From Halopseudomonas nanhaiensis (GTDB taxonomy: Bacteria > Pseudomonadota > Gammaproteobacteria > Pseudomonadales > Pseudomonadaceae), in contig NZ_CP073751.1 in the NCBI RefSeq assembly GCF_020025155.1, positions 992,001 to 1,056,000 on the forward strand: a stretch of 64,000 nucleotides of DNA. Direction: 5' to 3'. A program made the translations under genes and the position numbers. Positions 45,589-54,387 of this stretch are shown in pieces. Under the pieces are notes generated by a model that did no database searches, had not been told where the DNA came from, and was given only the letters and a program-made list of their open reading frames with translations. The first letter of the stretch is position 1. Each line of letters begins with the position of its first letter.

Positions 45589-47520
45589 ATGGTGTCACAG
45601 CGACGTTCGCGCAAAGAGGATGCTTCCGCCTGGACCGTGGCCGACAGCCGCAGCGTCTATGGCATCCGGCATTGGGGCGCCGGATATTTCAATGCGAACG
45701 ACAAGGGTCACGTCGAAGTCATGCCTCACGGGCCGAGCGGCGGCAGCATCGACCTTCAGAATCTGGTGCAGCAATTGCGCGACAGCGGACTGGATCTGCC
45801 GCTGCTGGTGCGCTTTCCCGATATTCTCCAGAGCCGGGTTCGGCAGCTGACCGGGGCGTTCGATCGAAACATTGCCAACATGGGTTATCGGAGTGGCTAC
45901 ACGGCGCTCTACCCGATCAAGGTCAATCAGCAGGAGGCGGTGGTGCAGAACATCATCGCCACCGAGAACGTCTCGATCGGTCTGGAAGCAGGCTCCAAGC
46001 CGGAGCTTATGGCGGTGCTCGCTCTGGCACCCAAGGGCGGCACCATCGTCTGCAACGGTTACAAGGATCGCGAATTCATTCACCTCGCGCTGGTGGGGCA
46101 GAAGCTCGGCCACAAGGTGTTCATCGTGATCGAAAAGGAGTCGGAAGTTCGACTGGTCATCGAGGAAGCTGAGAAGCTCGGAATTACGCCTCAGGTGGGC
46201 TTGCGGGTGCGCCTGTCCTCGCTGGCTTCGAGCAAGTGGGCTGACACCGGCGGCGAGAAGTCCAAGTTCGGTCTGTCCGCCGCCCAGCTGCTGCGGGTGA
46301 TCGATCGCTTCCGGGCCGCCGGACTCGAGGATGGTGTGCGGCTTTTGCACTTTCACATGGGCTCGCAGATTGCGAACCTGGCCGATTATCAGCACGGGTT
46401 CCGCGAAGCGATCCGCTACTTCGGCGAGCTGCGGGCGCTGGGCATGCCGGTGGATCATATCGATGTCGGCGGCGGGCTGGGCGTGGACTATGACGGTACG
46501 CACTCGCGCAACGCCAGCTCGATCAACTACGACGTTGACGAGTACGCGCAGACAGTGGTGGGCATGCTCAAGGACTTCTGTGACGAACAGGGCCTGCCCC
46601 ATCCGCACATCTTCTCCGAAAGTGGCCGCGCCATGACGGCGCACCATGCGGTGCTGATCGTTCAGGTCACCGATGTGGAACGGCATAACGACACGGTGCC
46701 GCCGCTGGAAAATGTCGAAGAGTTGCCGCAGGTAGTGCGCAACCTTGTCGGGCTGCTTGGTCAGACCGACATCGAGATGGTGACCGAAACCTACTGGCGC
46801 GCGACCCACTACATGGCCGATGTGGGTTCACAGTATGCCGAGGGCAAGCTGTCGCTGTCGGAAAAGGCCCTTGCCGAGCAGTGTTACTTTGCCCTGTGCA
46901 CCCGCCTGCACACGCTGCTCAAGGCGCGCCAGCGTTCGCACCGTCAGGTGCTCGATGAACTCAATGACAAGCTGGCCGACAAGTACATCTGCAACTTCTC
47001 GGTGTTCCAGAGCCTGCCGGATACCTGGGCGATTGCTCAGGTGCTGCCCATCATGCCGCTGAACCGTCTGGATGAAGAGCCACTGCGCCGCGCGGTGCTG
47101 CAGGATCTGACCTGCGATTCGGACGGCAAGATTCGTCACTATGTGGATGAGCAGAGTATCGAAAACAGTCTGCCGGTTCATGAACTGAAGGAAGGCGAGG
47201 ACTATCTGTTGGCCATTTTCATGGTCGGTGCGTATCAGGAAATTCTGGGCGACATGCACAACCTGTTCGGTGATACCGACTCGGTGAATGTCTTCCTGCG
47301 CGAGGATGGGCGCGTGGTGCAGGGTGGCATCGAAACCCACGATACCATCGAGGACATGTTGCGCTACGTGCACATCGAGCCGCACGAGCTGGTCACGCTG
47401 TACCGGGACAAGGTGGCAGGGGCCAAGCTGAGCCAGACCGAACGCACCCGTTACCTGGATGCGTTGCGTCTCGGCCTGACTCGCTCGTCCTATCTCAACG
47501 CGGAGGAAGGCAGCGCTTAA
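45589..47520 (+). CDS. speA: Biosynthetic arginine decarboxylase
   Basis: A 643-residue PLP enzyme making agmatine from arginine, the first step of putrescine synthesis. The N-terminus has [20 protein letters not shown], the PLP Lys111 lies in [14 protein letters not shown], and [20 protein letters not shown] and [18 protein letters not shown] [20 protein letters not shown] mark the alanine-racemase-type barrel. ATG 45589 has AAGAGG upstream; ATG 45544 would add an unconserved 15 residues. Length and ending ([10 protein letters not shown]) match the SpeA family. Its stop codon overlaps that of the convergent autotransporter gene. Confidence 0.95.
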
Positions 47521-47529
47521 AAGCGCTGC
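47510..47529. terminator. Palindrome shared by two converging stop codons
   Basis: A 9-bp inverted repeat (47510-47518 with 47521-47529, centre AA) contains the stop codons of both speA and the autotransporter gene. It could act as a compact two-way transcription stop, although it lacks long T-runs. Confidence 0.5.
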
Positions 47530-50213
47530 TGCCACTGGGCCATGAAGACCTGCATGGGTCCAGCCTGCGCCTGATGCCCTGGTTCGCGAATGCCGAGCCA
47601 GGACAGCTTCACATCGCTGTCTTTCCACACAGGCTTCTGCCAGAACGCTTCCAGGTTGATCTGCCGGCCATCTGGCGTCAGGTCGAGCGTCACCGTCTGC
47701 ATATCGAAGAGGTTCCCGGCGTAGCCGGTCGCAACGTTGATACGGGTGTCGGCAGACTCGACGCGCAATGGTTGCTGCAGCACGACGCCCAGCGTTGATT
47801 TATCAAGGGCGTAGCGTCCTGCAAACAGCCAGCTGCTGGTGGTCACCGTGCCCAGATCGCTGAACAGACCTTTGGCGTCGGCCTGACTCTGACCAATGTA
47901 CGCGGCGTGACCGAAGGTAACTGCCCCCTGTTGCAGCTCACCGCGAACGCCGGCGAACAGCGTCTGGCTGACATCGTCTAGATCGAAGGCGCCGCGCCCG
48001 TGGCTGTCGAACAGCCCGTCCTCGCTGCGCACGTAACCTGCTTCAAGCCGCGGCATATAGCCGGCGATCGTCGGCAGATTCAAGCCGGCCGACACACCCT
48101 GGCGAAGCGCATTTGCCGTGCTGGTCAGATCCACGCTGAAACTCCCCAGCGGGAGCCGCTGGCGGACCGCCAAGGTCTGCTCGCCGGGCTGTTGCAGCCA
48201 CAAGGGAGAGGAGAGCGTGGCGTCCAGTTGACTGAAGCCGGCCCAGCTGCGGCGCGCCTCAAGCATATCCAGATCATCCACCTGGCCCATGCTGATGGTG
48301 CGGCCTGCGCCCTGGTTGAAATGCATCACCTGGCTGTTGGATCCGCCTACGGTTCCGGCGGTCCAGCTGAGCGTGTGGTGACCTTCGCCCTGGCTCTGCC
48401 AGCTACGTCCGAGTCGCTGCCATGCCTGATGGGTGTCGTAGCGATAGCGTCGCTGGCTGACCTGCTCACCCAGATCGACACTGAAGCCCGCTTCCAGTGA
48501 GTCGGTCGCCATGACCTGCAGACTGGAGAGCGGGTTGTCGTAGCCGAAGGCACCGCCCAGCACCAGCGCAGATTCGTCTACCGACAGCACGTCTCCGGAA
48601 TCACTGACCACAGTCAGTCCGCCGACGGGACGCGTGGCCCGCTCCAGGTCCATCAGACCCTGGCCGTAGAAACTCTGGTTGGCATAGATGCCCTCCTTGT
48701 TGGCCGTGACCAGCAGGCGCTGTACCACCTGTTCCGGCGCCAGGGTCGGAAACGCCTGGCTGATGACGGCGAGGCCGCCGGTCACCGCCGGGGCGGCCAT
48801 TGAGGTTCCGGAGGCGATGGCGTAGGCGTCGTCACCACCAACATAGCTGGAGATGATGTCGGTTCCCGGCGCGGCTACGCACCAGGCTGCAGCGTCACCG
48901 CATGCATTGGCAAAGTCGCTGAGTACGCCGGTATCGGAGTCGACACTGGTTACCGCGACCCAGTTGTACTGAAGTTCCGGATACAGTTGCGGCATCGCAG
49001 CAAAGACCAGGGGCTGGTTCAGACCTTCGTTGCCGGTGGCCCAGACATAGATCCGGTCAGCCTGCGCTCCGGCCTGCCATTCTGCGCGCAGGTTGGGGAA
49101 ATACGCCTCCACCTCTCCGCGACTGAATTCGGCGACGGTCGCGTCGATCCCCCAGCTGTTGTTGAACCAGGTGGCGCCATTGGCGCGTGCCCAGGCGAAG
49201 CCGCTGGCCAGCTGGGCATCGGTCGCGGTGATGTTGTCGTTGGCGTCGCTGAAGCGGACGTTCAGCAGCTGCGCGCCATGTGCATAACCAACCACGCCGA
49301 AGTCGTCCTGGCGGGCTACCAATGTCCCGGCCACGTGACTACCGTGACCGCCGCTGTCCTGCCCATCGGCCTCAGTCGTGGTGCCCGTCAGAACGTTGTA
49401 ATGCCCGACAATCTGGCCCTGCAGCTCCCGGTGGCTGGAGTTAACGCCGCTGTCGATGATCGCGATGCGCTCGCCACTGCCTGTAAAACCGCGGTCGTGA
49501 GCAACGTGCCCGTAGGTCAGCTCGTAGCCGCCTGTATTGAAGTGCTCGCGCGTCAGCGGAGTCGACTTGGCTGATTCGTCATCGCCGGGGAGGGGGCCCG
49601 GATCAGGCAGGGCGCCCGGATCGCCGGTAATCGGCTGATCAGGCACAGGGGTGTCGGACGGCGGAGTCAGCACGGGAAGCGAGCCGTCGCCGGGCTGTTC
49701 GGTGACAGGCTGGTCATCGCCTCCTTCAGGAGGCGGAGTCGGCGTCGGAGCTGGATCGCTGCCCCCGCCACCACCGCCCCCGCCACCACCCGCCGCCGCA
49801 GCGGCAATACCGATGACCAGCCCGCCGCCTGCGATCCAGCCAAGCGTACGCCGGTCCGCCTGCATGCCGGCTGAGCGTTCAGGGGTCCGTGCCAGGCGCT
49901 GCTCGAGCATCTGCTCGAGCATGGCGGACTGGTCAGCGCTGATCAGGCCCTGTGTCTCCACGTATACCGACCGGGCGATCGCATCTCCCTGCGACATCAG
50001 TTCGCCGGCCTGTTGGCGCAGCGCGGTATCAGAACGGCCGGCTGCCTCGACCAGGCTGCGCACCTGATCCTGGCTCAACACGTTGGTATAGGCGGTCGAG
50101 GTTGCAACATTCGCGCTTTGCGCGTGCGCGATGATCGGAAACAGAACAAGGGGGGTACTGGCGAGCAGGGCAGCAAGACAAACGGGGCGGGCGTGAAAGC
50201 TCAATCTCTGCAT
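47517..50213 (-). CDS. Subtilisin-type autotransporter serine protease
   Basis: An 898-residue type Va secreted protease. Sec signal ([20 protein letters not shown], cleaved near AHA), a helical propeptide (about 25-110), a hydrophobic glycine-rich stretch with a ten-Gly run, then a Pro/Thr/Asp-rich linker to about 220. The S8 triad is intact: Asp in [14 protein letters not shown] (about 253), His in [11 protein letters not shown] (about 291) and Ser in [13 protein letters not shown] (about 470). The last 280 residues form the beta-barrel translocator, ending in aromatic QWQQRF. Start at 50213 fits the signal peptide. Confidence 0.9.
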
Positions 50214-50334
50214 GACGATCTCTTCTCGGTCGTATAGGCGAAGCTGAGGGAATCCTAGTCGACACGGTTTCGTCTCGCTGGTCAGCTGTCGCAATTCTGA
50301 GAATCGGCCGCCAGCAGATAAAGTTGAGTACCGT

Positions 50335-51060
50335 TCAGCGGGCCGGGATGCTGATCCAGGTCGCTTCAGCGAACGCGACCAGCGCACCGTCGGAGCGAAA
50401 GAGGGCAGTGCCGGCCTGATGCTTTCTACCATCATGACGGAGTGCCCAGCCGGCTACCGTCAGCGTGTCTCCCGCCGGCACCGGCACCAGCAACCTGGCT
50501 GCGAAGCGCCCCAGCAGTGCCAGGCCGGAAACCGGGCGCACGGCGAAGAAACCGGGGCAATCCAGCGCTGCCCAGATGTATTCGCTGGCGACGTATCCGT
50601 CCGCGGCAGTGAGCGTCGCATCCGGCGTCCACAATGCAGCAACGTTCCCCTGTGCAGCGCCCAGCGGCCCAGCGAAGATACGCAGGCCATCGCAGGGCTC
50701 GCGGTTCGGGCCGCAGACGAAGCACCCTGGCAGATCATGATGGACGATGCCGACGAAGTGCTGCTGGGCCTGGCTTGCCTCGTCCTGGGTGGGCGGTGGA
50801 GGCACGTCCATCACCAGCTGATAGGGTCGCGCACTGGCCAGCAGCCGATCGCCATCGCGCAGCTGCAAACCATCGCCCGCGCTAACCAGCGAAAGCGGAC
50901 GATCCAGAGGGGGCGGTGCATGGAGCGTGACCTGGCATTGGCCTGACATTTCGCGCGCCAACAGTCCGGCCACGTATCCACCGTTGCCGCTATCAGGCGG
51001 CCCGCAGAACCGCGAGGCAATGGTCAGGCTGTGTGCGACTGCGGCGTTCTCGTTCGACAT
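50335..51060 (-). CDS. Hotdog-fold thioesterase-like protein
   Basis: About 241 residues. The segment LPGCFVCGPNREPCDGLRIF and the later GRKHQAGTALFRSDGALVAF ending in AEATWI are typical of PaaI-like acyl-CoA thioesterases of the hotdog superfamily, probably two hotdog halves in one chain. No catalytic residue can be assigned with certainty. Starts 3 bases after the halohydrin dehalogenase-like gene, so it belongs to the same operon. Confidence 0.65.
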   Translation of the reverse strand: MSNENAAVAHSLTIASRFCGPPDSGNGGYVAGLLAREMSGQCQVTLHAPPPLDRPLSLVSAGDGLQLRDGDRLLASARPYQLVMDVPPPPTQDEASQAQQHFVGIVHHDLPGCFVCGPNREPCDGLRIFAGPLGAAQGNVAALWTPDATLTAADGYVASEYIWAALDCPGFFAVRPVSGLALLGRFAARLLVPVPAGDTLTVAGWALRHDGRKHQAGTALFRSDGALVAFAEATWISIPAR

Positions 51061-51062
51061 GG

Positions 51063-51743
51063 TCAGTCAGCCCACCCGCCACACACGGGGAAGATCTGCC
51101 CAACGAAGCAGTCGGCTGCATCGCTGCACAGGTAGGCAGCGAACGAGGCATCCTCTTCGGCAGATACCAGGCGGCCGAGCGGTACTTCACGCTTGAGTCT
51201 GGCCTGGAAGGCAGGATTGGCCTGAATCTCTTCGGGGAAATACGTCGGATTGTCGACGAAGTTCTGTGCGATCGCATTGATCTGCACATTGTGCGGCGCC
51301 GCTTCCAGCGCCACCGAACGGATATACGCAAGCTGCGCACCCCGCGCGGCGCTATAGCTGGAGGCACGCTTGATGCCGCGTAGCGCTGAAGCACTGCCCA
51401 TCAACAATATCTTGCCGGACTTGCGCTCGATCATCGTCGGCAGCGCCGCGCGTACCAGCCGCTGGAGCGGGTCGACCATCTGGCTGAACATCAGGCGCCA
51501 CTCGTCGTCCTCGACGTCGACTGCCGGGGTGTTCGGTGCAGGTACGCCGAGGTTGGCCACCAGCGCATCGATTCGGCCGGCCTGCCGGACAACCGCCTGC
51601 GCTTCGCCAGGGCCGGTCAGTGCTCCTTCGGCAGCAATGACCTCTGCGCCGCAGCGTTTGAACATCTGGTGCAGAGCTGGGCCCATGAACGCATCAGAAT
51701 GCGTGAGCAGAATACGTTTGCCTGAAAGATCGATCGGTTGCAT
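51063..51743 (-). CDS. Halohydrin dehalogenase-like SDR-fold protein
   Basis: A 226-residue SDR-fold protein that lacks the NAD(P)-binding TGxxxGxG motif. In its place is THSDAFMG (Thr14, Phe19, Gly21), the T-x4-F-x-G pattern described for halohydrin dehalogenases. The active site reads Ser117, Tyr130 and Arg134, that is S-x12-Y-x3-R, with Arg replacing the SDR lysine. NPTYFPEEI and the C-terminal GQIFPVCGGW resemble the halide-pocket and C-terminal regions of HheC as I recall them. Such enzymes turn vicinal haloalcohols into epoxides without a cofactor. The gene upstream is an epoxide hydrolase. An ordinary but degenerate SDR is the alternative. Confidence 0.7.
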   Translation of the reverse strand: MQPIDLSGKRILLTHSDAFMGPALHQMFKRCGAEVIAAEGALTGPGEAQAVVRQAGRIDALVANLGVPAPNTPAVDVEDDEWRLMFSQMVDPLQRLVRAALPTMIERKSGKILLMGSASALRGIKRASSYSAARGAQLAYIRSVALEAAPHNVQINAIAQNFVDNPTYFPEEIQANPAFQARLKREVPLGRLVSAEEDASFAAYLCSDAADCFVGQIFPVCGGWAD

Positions 51744-51791
51744 GAAATTTCCTTGAGCGAGACGACTGTCGATATGCCAGGGGGCGCGGCG

Positions 51792-52751
51792 TCAGGTAAA
51801 AGTACGCTTCAGGAACTCGAGCAGGTATCGATTGACCTGCTCGGGCTTTTCGCCCTGAATCCAGTGGCCGCAGTCCTCGAACACATGCTGCTCGACCCGG
51901 GGTATCAGTGAGGGCATCTTCTTGATCGTGTAGGCTTCCATTTCGCCTACCGGGTCCCCATCACCGATCAGGAACAGGGCGGGTTGCTCGATCATGCGGC
52001 CGGCGAGATCTGCGGTGCGCTCCCAATTGCGGCCGAAGTTCCGGTACCAGTTCAACGGCCCGCGAAAGCCGCTGCGCTCGAACGTCTCGACGTAGACATT
52101 GAAGGCGTCCTGCGAACACCATTGCGGCGGCACGCCCGGATCGACGCGGTCGTCGAGCCAGCGCGCGTCGGCTGGTTTGTTACCGAACAATGTATTGCCG
52201 CTGCCACTCTCGGACAGTCCGTGCATGACCAGACGCATGGTTCGGGGAATGTCCGACTCCAGTTCCGCTTCGGCGCGTCCGGGCTGCTGGAAGTAGAGAA
52301 TGTAGTGGAAGCGATCCTGGAAGTGTTCGCGCATCATGTCGATGGCCGGGCGCTTCGGGCGACCGCCGAACGGCACCGACATGCCTGAAACGACCTGAAC
52401 CCGCTCGGGCTCGAGCAGCGCCATATGCCAGGCCACCAGTGCGCCCCAGTCGTGGCCGATCATGGCGACCCGGGTGTGCCCGAGGTGATCCATAGCGGCC
52501 TGGATGTCGCCGCACAGCGTAATCACATCATAGGCTTCAACCGGTTGCGGCGCGCTGGTACGGCCATATCCACGCATCTCCGGCGCGCATACGCGATAGC
52601 CTGCTGCCGCCAGAGCGTCGATCTGATGCCGCCAGGAGTACCAGCATTCAGGAAAGCCGTGCAGCAGCCATACCGGCTTGCCGTCCTCCGGGCCGGAGAA
52701 ATGGACGCTCAGTTCGATATCGTTGACGTGAAGGATGTGCTGCTCGGTCAT
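51792..52751 (-). CDS. Epoxide hydrolase (alpha/beta hydrolase fold)
   Basis: A 319-residue epoxide hydrolase of the soluble/EphA type. Oxyanion motif HGFPECWYSWRHQ (His31), nucleophile Asp101 in MIGHDWGALVAWHMA, and general base His296 in EDCGHWIQGEKPEQVN. An Asp, not Ser, nucleophile marks it as an epoxide hydrolase or haloalkane dehalogenase; HGFPE with a preceding Pro-rich lid favours the former. First gene of a three-gene operon. Confidence 0.88.
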   Translation of the reverse strand: MTEQHILHVNDIELSVHFSGPEDGKPVWLLHGFPECWYSWRHQIDALAAAGYRVCAPEMRGYGRTSAPQPVEAYDVITLCGDIQAAMDHLGHTRVAMIGHDWGALVAWHMALLEPERVQVVSGMSVPFGGRPKRPAIDMMREHFQDRFHYILYFQQPGRAEAELESDIPRTMRLVMHGLSESGSGNTLFGNKPADARWLDDRVDPGVPPQWCSQDAFNVYVETFERSGFRGPLNWYRNFGRNWERTADLAGRMIEQPALFLIGDGDPVGEMEAYTIKKMPSLIPRVEQHVFEDCGHWIQGEKPEQVNRYLLEFLKRTFT

Positions 52752-52866: not shown

Positions 52867-53481
52867 TCAGGATCCGCTGCGGCTGATCGACATCAGCAGA
52901 CTCAGCAGGCTGATGCCCAGCGCAAGCAGACTGATGATTAGCGGCCAGCGCCCACTCGGAGCGGCACTTCCGGTCTGGGTCTGTGGCGCGTGAACGATCA
53001 TCGTCGAACGCGCCGGAGCGGAGGGCGCTACCACCGGATCATCCTGGGTGGGATCAGCACTGCCCTGCATAAGACTGAGCATCCGCTCGACAAGATGATG
53101 ATCGAAGCGATAGGGATCAAAGGTACTGAAACCATGCTGCTCAAGCAGATTTCTGACGTGGGTATCGACCGGGACGAATTTCATCGACCAGTCGGGGAAT
53201 GAGAGTCGACGAATCGGCTCCTGTACCAGCACCTTCAGGTCCGTGTGACGGCCGTCGCGTTGCAGTCGACGGTACAGCGAGTTGATCTTGCCGCGTTCAC
53301 CTTCCAGGCACTGGAAGAAGCAGGCGTCGCCATAGTGCAGCATGCCAACCACCCCGCTGCGCTGGTTGTTGCGCCGCGACACGGCAAGGATGCGCGCTAC
53401 GGTCGGCTCCACCCCGTCTTCCGCCGATACCGGCTGGAAGCTCGCGCGACTGATGTAAACGATGCGGACCAGTTCTGTCAT
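52867..53481 (-). CDS. BLUF-domain blue-light sensor with C-terminal membrane anchor
   Basis: About 204 residues. The BLUF domain covers residues 1-100 and has all key residues of the flavin site: Tyr9 (LVRIVYISRAS), Asn39 (RRNNQRSGVVGML), Gln57 (ACFFQCLEG), Trp98 and Met100 (FPDWSMKF). Residues 100-145 form a helical capping region, followed by a Ser/Pro/Ala linker and one membrane helix near the C-terminus (LIISLLALGISLLSLLMSIS). No output domain is fused. ATG 53481 fits the usual BLUF N-terminus. Divergent from plsC, which starts about 105 bases away. Confidence 0.9.
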   Translation of the reverse strand: MTELVRIVYISRASFQPVSAEDGVEPTVARILAVSRRNNQRSGVVGMLHYGDACFFQCLEGERGKINSLYRRLQRDGRHTDLKVLVQEPIRRLSFPDWSMKFVPVDTHVRNLLEQHGFSTFDPYRFDHHLVERMLSLMQGSADPTQDDPVVAPSAPARSTMIVHAPQTQTGSAAPSGRWPLIISLLALGISLLSLLMSISRSGS

Positions 53482-53586
53482 AAACGCCCGTGTAGGAGGT
53501 GCTGAATCAGGAGCATAGGCGCTGGGGAATGAACTATGGCAAGCTTTGTATTTCAAGAAACGTCTGCCGCTGGTCGAGGATTCCCC

Positions 53587-54387
53587 ATGGCATGCAACCA
53601 ACGGAAGGTAACAGCAGCCGCGCCGTGGCAGCGGATCGGCGTGTTTCTCGGCTCCCTGTTGGTTACCGTGGCCTACTGCGTCGACGTACTCTGGCGCGCT
53701 GCGCTGGGACGGCTCGAGCGCAGCCGCGTGGACCGCTACACACGAAGCTGGTCCGGCTGGCTACTGCGGCTGATCCGGATGCGCCTGAGCGTTGAAGGCG
53801 ACTGTCCTGATTTCAATGACGGCCGGCGGTACATCATTCTCTGCAACCACGCCAGCCACTACGACATCCCTGCCACATTCGTCGCGATGCCGGGCTCGAT
53901 TCGCATGCTGGCCAAGTCGGAGCTTTACCGTATTCCCTTGCTGGGCTCGGCTATGCGCGCGGCAGAGTTTCCATCGATCAACCGGCACAGGCGCGACCAG
54001 GCGCTGGCTGATCTGCAGCGAGCTCGGACGATGATGGAGTCTGGGATCGTGCTCTGGGCTGCCCCTGAAGGGACCCGTTCGCCGGACGGCAGTCTGCTGC
54101 CCTTCAAGAAGGGCTGCTTCCACCTGGCGCTGGACACCGGAGCGATCGTCGTACCGGTAGCCATTCGCGGCATTCATCACGTGCTGCCCGCCAGAACGCG
54201 GCAGTTCAATCTGGGGCAGCCGGTCTCCGTACATATCGGTGAGCCAATCGACAGCTGCCGCTATGATCTGGCGGGGCTCATGACCGAAACGCGCGCGAGG
54301 ATGCTCGATCTGCTCGGCGAGCAGGCGGCGGGTGTGGCGGCGTCGGGCGAACCTGCCAGGCCGGGGATCAACCCGCAGCCGTTCTGA
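53587..54387 (+). CDS. 1-acyl-sn-glycerol-3-phosphate acyltransferase (PlsC family)
   Basis: A 266-residue membrane acyltransferase that adds the second acyl chain to lysophosphatidate. N-terminal helix near 20-40, the catalytic NHASHYD motif (HX4D), the glycerol-phosphate-binding AAPEGTRSPDGSLLPFKKG and VVPVAIRGIHHVLP. ATG 53587 is chosen for GAGGA at 6 bases; ATG 53536 would add 17 residues. It stands alone, convergent with the unknown gene at 54390. Confidence 0.87.
   Translation: MACNQRKVTAAAPWQRIGVFLGSLLVTVAYCVDVLWRAALGRLERSRVDRYTRSWSGWLLRLIRMRLSVEGDCPDFNDGRRYIILCNHASHYDIPATFVAMPGSIRMLAKSELYRIPLLGSAMRAAEFPSINRHRRDQALADLQRARTMMESGIVLWAAPEGTRSPDGSLLPFKKGCFHLALDTGAIVVPVAIRGIHHVLPARTRQFNLGQPVSVHIGEPIDSCRYDLAGLMTETRARMLDLLGEQAAGVAASGEPARPGINPQPF

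Follow-up and report, generated by a model that had tools for sequence, protein, structure and literature searches.

A three-gene locus in Halopseudomonas nanhaiensis

The window analysed here, a stretch of 64,000 nucleotides of Halopseudomonas nanhaiensis (NZ_CP073751.1, positions 992,001 to 1,056,000), contains three neighbouring genes that encode an epoxide hydrolase (EH), a D-type halohydrin dehalogenase (HHDH; HheD for the D-type enzyme) and a double-hotdog protein (Table 1). All three open reading frames (ORFs) lie on the minus strand at the positions given in an initial annotation made from the sequence, with 48 bases between EH and HheD and 2 bases between the HheD stop codon and the hotdog ATG. 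For the middle gene, which encodes a protein of the short-chain dehydrogenase/reductase (SDR) fold, that annotation had proposed an HHDH and no NAD(P)-dependent SDR, an identification that we find to be right. The find is sound and largely ordinary, with little novelty; what it adds is comparative, namely a conserved yet non-obligate pairing of EH and HheD within one genus.

Table 1 Genes of the locus and its flanks, in window coordinates
Gene product	Position	Strand	Features
Epoxide hydrolase (EH), EphA/sEH-like alpha/beta-hydrolase, 319 aa	51792-52751	minus	nucleophile D101, D266, H296
D-type halohydrin dehalogenase (HheD), 226 aa	51063-51743	minus	S117-Y130-R134 triad; T14-x4-F19-x-G21 nucleophile-pocket motif
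Double-hotdog protein, TesB-like fold, 241 aa, without Pfam or NCBIfam family	50335-51060	minus	may be an acyl-CoA thioesterase
BLUF blue-light sensor	52867-53601	minus	PF04940
Subtilase	47517-50435	minus	PF00082

The SDR-fold protein belongs with the D-type halohydrin dehalogenases

HHDHs are defined by an N-terminal T-X4-F/Y-X-G motif together with a catalytic S-X12-Y-X3-R motif (PMC4989007). Both patterns are present in the 226-residue protein exactly as first described (T-x4-F-x-G at residues 14-21 and S117-x12-Y130-x3-R134), and a motif search found no glycine-rich nicotinamide-binding motif, TGxxx[AG]xG, in it. Among the best 120 of 7301 matches, both HHDH motifs occur in 120 of 120 homologues and S-x12-Y-x3-K in none, so a chance occurrence of the pair is unlikely. 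As a control, we considered a further seven SDR-like loci from this genome (L002-L008), in which no single frame holds both HHDH motifs; six combine TGxxx[AG]xG with S-x12-Y-x3-K, and for the seventh (L007) no frame with that combination is among those listed. The first motif is weak evidence by itself, as its pattern also occurs twice, by chance, in one control SDR frame (L006).

The best PDB matches, both by sequence and by structure, are HHDHs. The nearest solved relatives are the D-type enzymes HheD2 (7b73, from a gammaproteobacterium) and a chloride-bound mutant of HheD8 (8xxb), each 62% identical to the window protein and sharing its length class, both motifs, fold and subtype. In a tree that represents the genus by its G-numbered genomes, with HheA, HheC, HheG and 12 named genus loci left out, the protein groups with D-type sequences. 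HheB also groups among these, at the end of a very long branch, and this tree therefore leaves the outer limit of subtype D unsettled.

Automated annotation of homologues would instead make the protein an ordinary NAD(P)-dependent SDR oxidoreductase. The glycine-rich motif is absent, however, Arg replaces the catalytic Lys, no NCBIfam model reaches its cut-off (best 25 of 182), and both the ranked matches and the tree, which might have placed it within the NAD(P)-dependent SDRs, lead to D-type HHDHs. We therefore reject this assignment as extremely improbable. Judged by its motifs and relatives, the gene product almost certainly converts halogenated alcohols to epoxides.

A predicted route from haloalcohol to diol

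The EH carries H31-G-F-P and, within GHDWGA, D101; its residues D266, H296, Y150/Y153 and Y236 coincide with identical residues in the alignment to EphA (PDB 5cw2), which it matches over its full length (5.5e-80). We take these to be the oxyanion motif, the Asp nucleophile, the Asp/His pair and the two lid tyrosines; with these roles, the protein has the HGXP motif and full catalytic set of an alpha/beta-hydrolase epoxide hydrolase. The neighbouring gene had been read as an epoxide hydrolase with an Asp nucleophile, and the position of D101 and the resemblance to EphA and soluble EHs (sEHs) agree with that reading.

With characterised HHDHs as a template (PMC4989007), Tyr130, activated or tuned by Arg134, would deprotonate a vicinal haloalcohol held by Ser117. 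The alkoxide would then displace the neighbouring halide into a pocket located where SDRs have the nicotinamide site, and the epoxide would be released. Asp101 of EH would attack this epoxide to yield a diol, and diol formation would both pull the reversible HHDH reaction forward and remove a toxic product. Of the possible reaction orders, haloalcohol to epoxide to diol is the likeliest. We consider it very probable that the locus encodes a cofactor-free, subtype-D HHDH whose epoxide is opened to a diol by the co-directional upstream EH. The sequence itself shows the family, the motifs and a gene order conserved within the genus; the two chemistries would follow those of characterised relatives, and gene order suggests that the genes are co-transcribed and that the HheD product feeds EH.

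Comparison with published enzymes

The initial annotation had considered HHDHs rare and a native HHDH-EH operon in a marine-type pseudomonad new, a claim that mostly does not stand. One review lists dozens of D-type HHDHs (PMC4989007). HheD12 was reported in Pseudomonas pelagia CL-AP6, and the same study describes HHDHs in all examined marine species of this Pseudomonas lineage except P. litoralis, and also in P. xinjiangensis (PMC6922532). HheD12 is 77% identical to the window HheD and belongs to the same genus (P. pelagia being a Halopseudomonas); at its locus (L031) an EH ends 14 bases upstream, although no hotdog gene match is present. The HHDH section of that study does not mention the EH neighbour (PMC6922532). 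Literature searches on HHDH with Halopseudomonas and on HheD8 returned no paper.

HheC of Agrobacterium radiobacter AD1 likewise lies in an operon with an epoxide hydrolase, and joint haloalcohol detoxification has been proposed for the pair (PMC11976700). HheC differs in being of another subtype, with a far weaker match to the window protein (4ixt, 64.9 bits versus 319.6 for HheD2), and in coming from a haloalcohol degrader, whereas the window HheD comes from an environmental genus. The review knows of just two HHDH genes that share an operon with an EH (PMC4989007); the HheD12-EH pair may be the second of these and would then already be in print.

Conserved yet non-obligate pairing in the genus

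Across 37 genomes of the genus, we found EH in 36 (counting a 176-residue piece at a contig end in G023), the hotdog gene in 24 and HheD in 22. In 17 of the 22 genomes with HheD, its immediate upstream neighbour is EH in the same orientation, with aligned ends 14-84 bases apart. EH was also present in all 12 named HheD loci that belong or were assigned to the genus. Nine of these bear a Halopseudomonas or Pseudomonas species name; the other three, two titled as Pseudomonas sp. MAGs and one as Gammaproteobacteria, were assigned on the grounds that they give the same matches as G030, G032 and G024. These 12 were set aside from the 80 loci retained out of 470 matching places, leaving 68 named loci outside the genus.

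Several results weigh against the predicted route. EH is not adjacent in 5 of the 22 HheD genomes, lying 2.1 kb off in G015 and elsewhere in G019, G027 and G031, with no copy found in G026, and it occurs in 36 of 37 genomes compared with 22 for HheD. Outside the genus, the window EH had no match in the available flanks of any of the 68 HheD loci (tblastn, E 1e-5; both flanks reach 3 kb or more in 43 of the 68 loci and 7 kb or more in 37), a search with one protein that epoxide hydrolases of unrelated families would escape. A consensus promoter scan yielded no sites at the locus, and a terminator scan gave predictions no better than chance level. Finally, the structure model has a predicted local distance difference test (pLDDT) score below 50 at residues 123-125 and 164-167, which form pocket loops near the active site; a halide pocket is predicted from homology to chloride-bound HheD8.

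The occurrence of EH irrespective of HheD marks it as the resident core gene of the locus, beside which HheD comes or goes. Since EH is core and HheD variable, EH has work without HheD, presumably on other substrates. An EH dedicated to HheD was accordingly rejected as stated. The initial suggestion of a coherent route from haloalcohol through epoxide to diol is thus consistent with the co-directional neighbour in 17 genomes but weakened as a dedicated route. Conversely, the absence of a match to this EH from the available flanks of all 68 outside loci suggests that HheD usually works without an EH of the window type. Two close tree relatives of HheD2 (L070 and L099), for example, have no EH in their flanks.

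It is possible, though we lean against it, that HheD is a true HHDH in vitro whose natural work differs (for example, opening metabolic or xenobiotic epoxides with halide, nitrite or cyanide), and that its adjacency to EH is a by-product of a shared promoter. The independence of the core EH gene from HheD would fit this, as would the lack of a recurrent HheD partner outside the genus, where the largest neighbour family reaches 6 of 68 loci (up to two neighbours on each side). The review also leaves room for other physiological functions, given that only two of the known HHDH genes share an operon with an EH (PMC4989007). On the other side stand the tight same-strand adjacency in 17 genomes, with HheDs 68-92% identical to that of the window, and the same arrangement in HheC, whose hosts are known haloalcohol degraders (PMC11976700).

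The HheD genes beside EH fall in a single region of the tree (support 88, unstarred), with one Lysobacterales sequence and the G015 copy among them. A separate, starred clade unites the HheDs of G019, G026, G027 and G031; these copies (L183, L189, L190 and L188, respectively) are about 87-88% identical to that of G019 and lie at another site, with partly common neighbours and no EH match. Separate clades at different sites indicate that the genus holds at least two HheD lineages.

In 19 EH regions, EH generally sits between a speA-like arginine decarboxylase gene and an outer-membrane efflux gene. In genomes without HheD, the speA-like gene lies 2.5-5.6 kb from EH in 10 of 11 (the contig ends first in G005), and in the regions read the space contains other genes, including a Vut_1 transporter gene and an NAD-dependent DNA ligase homologue, or chemotaxis-receptor and GGDEF genes (Pfam was run on some only). 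G015 and G022 are 94-96% identical on both sides of a stretch that spans 1,070 bases with HheD in the former (L170 5831-6900) and 153 bases in the latter (L182 4262-4414). HheD is the sole gene of this 1.07-kb segment, which lies between a GGDEF gene and a chemotaxis receptor gene.

The natural role of most HHDHs is open, and only two HHDH-EH operons have been counted in the review (PMC4989007). The 17 of 22 HheD genomes with an adjacent EH, together with a near-identical pair that differs by an HheD segment, provide a natural setting in which to test that role by comparison. Should it prove to be ordinary haloalcohol detoxification, the value of the locus is one more biocatalyst pair.

More broadly, HheD was found in 5 of 369 sampled genomes of the class, the window's own genome included; the other four had no EH or hotdog match in nearby stretches (one of only 3.9 kb). 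One plasmid record carried HheD, from Novosphingobium resinovorum (49.5% identity).

The double-hotdog protein

The protein encoded behind HheD has a double-hotdog fold, and its best fold matches are TesB-like thioesterases. No Pfam family, including any thioesterase domain, matched it at E 0.001, and no sequence match was found in the PDB; the TesB-type acyl-CoA thioesterases 3cjy, 4r9z and 1c8u differ in being only 10-13% identical to it, without a sequence match. Pfam searches of eight homologues gave no match up to E 1 for five and a sub-threshold match for three. It is a member of a large family for which Pfam has no model and in which RFxGPPxSGNGGY, CFVCG and GRKH are strongly conserved (relatives P0121-P0240). 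The initial suggestion that it may act on a downstream acyl-CoA agrees with the TesB-like resemblance, the fold being what points to it.

In 12 of the 22 HheD genomes the hotdog gene comes directly after HheD, at a distance of no more than 133 bases; in a further one it is 972 bases downstream, and there the gap contains a gene resembling the GGDEF genes of the locus (a Pfam check was made on the G015 copy). It is present in 20 of 22 genomes with HheD versus 4 of 15 without (Fisher p 9e-5, 37 genomes). When the EH tree was used in place of a species tree (covering 34 of the 37 genomes, all but G020, G023 and G026), this co-occurrence came down to 2 independent pairs if only supported branches are considered, or 4 with every branch included (sign test p 1), so we did not count it as evidence of a shared pathway.

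These data bear on the idea of a single dedicated pathway encoded by all three genes, with a fatty-acid halohydrin as its substrate and a dihydroxyacyl-CoA that the hotdog protein would hydrolyse. Soluble EHs act on epoxy fatty acids, and the EH is related to them; this, the gene order in 12 genomes, the raw co-occurrence and the TesB-like fold all fit such a pathway. We nevertheless consider this pathway decidedly unlikely; none of the results ties the hotdog protein to the haloalcohol route. A genus-specific scenario is also doubtful: HheD would have been recruited to the promoter of the resident sEH-like EH in Halopseudomonas, with the hotdog hydrolase added behind in some species, clearing halohydrins of unsaturated lipids that arise from marine halogenation. 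If true, it would provide a natural, non-pollutant substrate for HHDHs.

Flanking genes

Immediately upstream of EH, and in the same orientation, is a gene for a BLUF blue-light sensor; a BLUF match also adjoins EH in genomes G034, G013, G012, G006, G016 and G029, which makes light-linked control of the EH-HheD genes conceivable. After the hotdog gene comes a subtilase gene whose longest ORF overlaps it; a likely signal-peptide start is located further inside this ORF, and the ORF list therefore probably shows an artefactual overlap.
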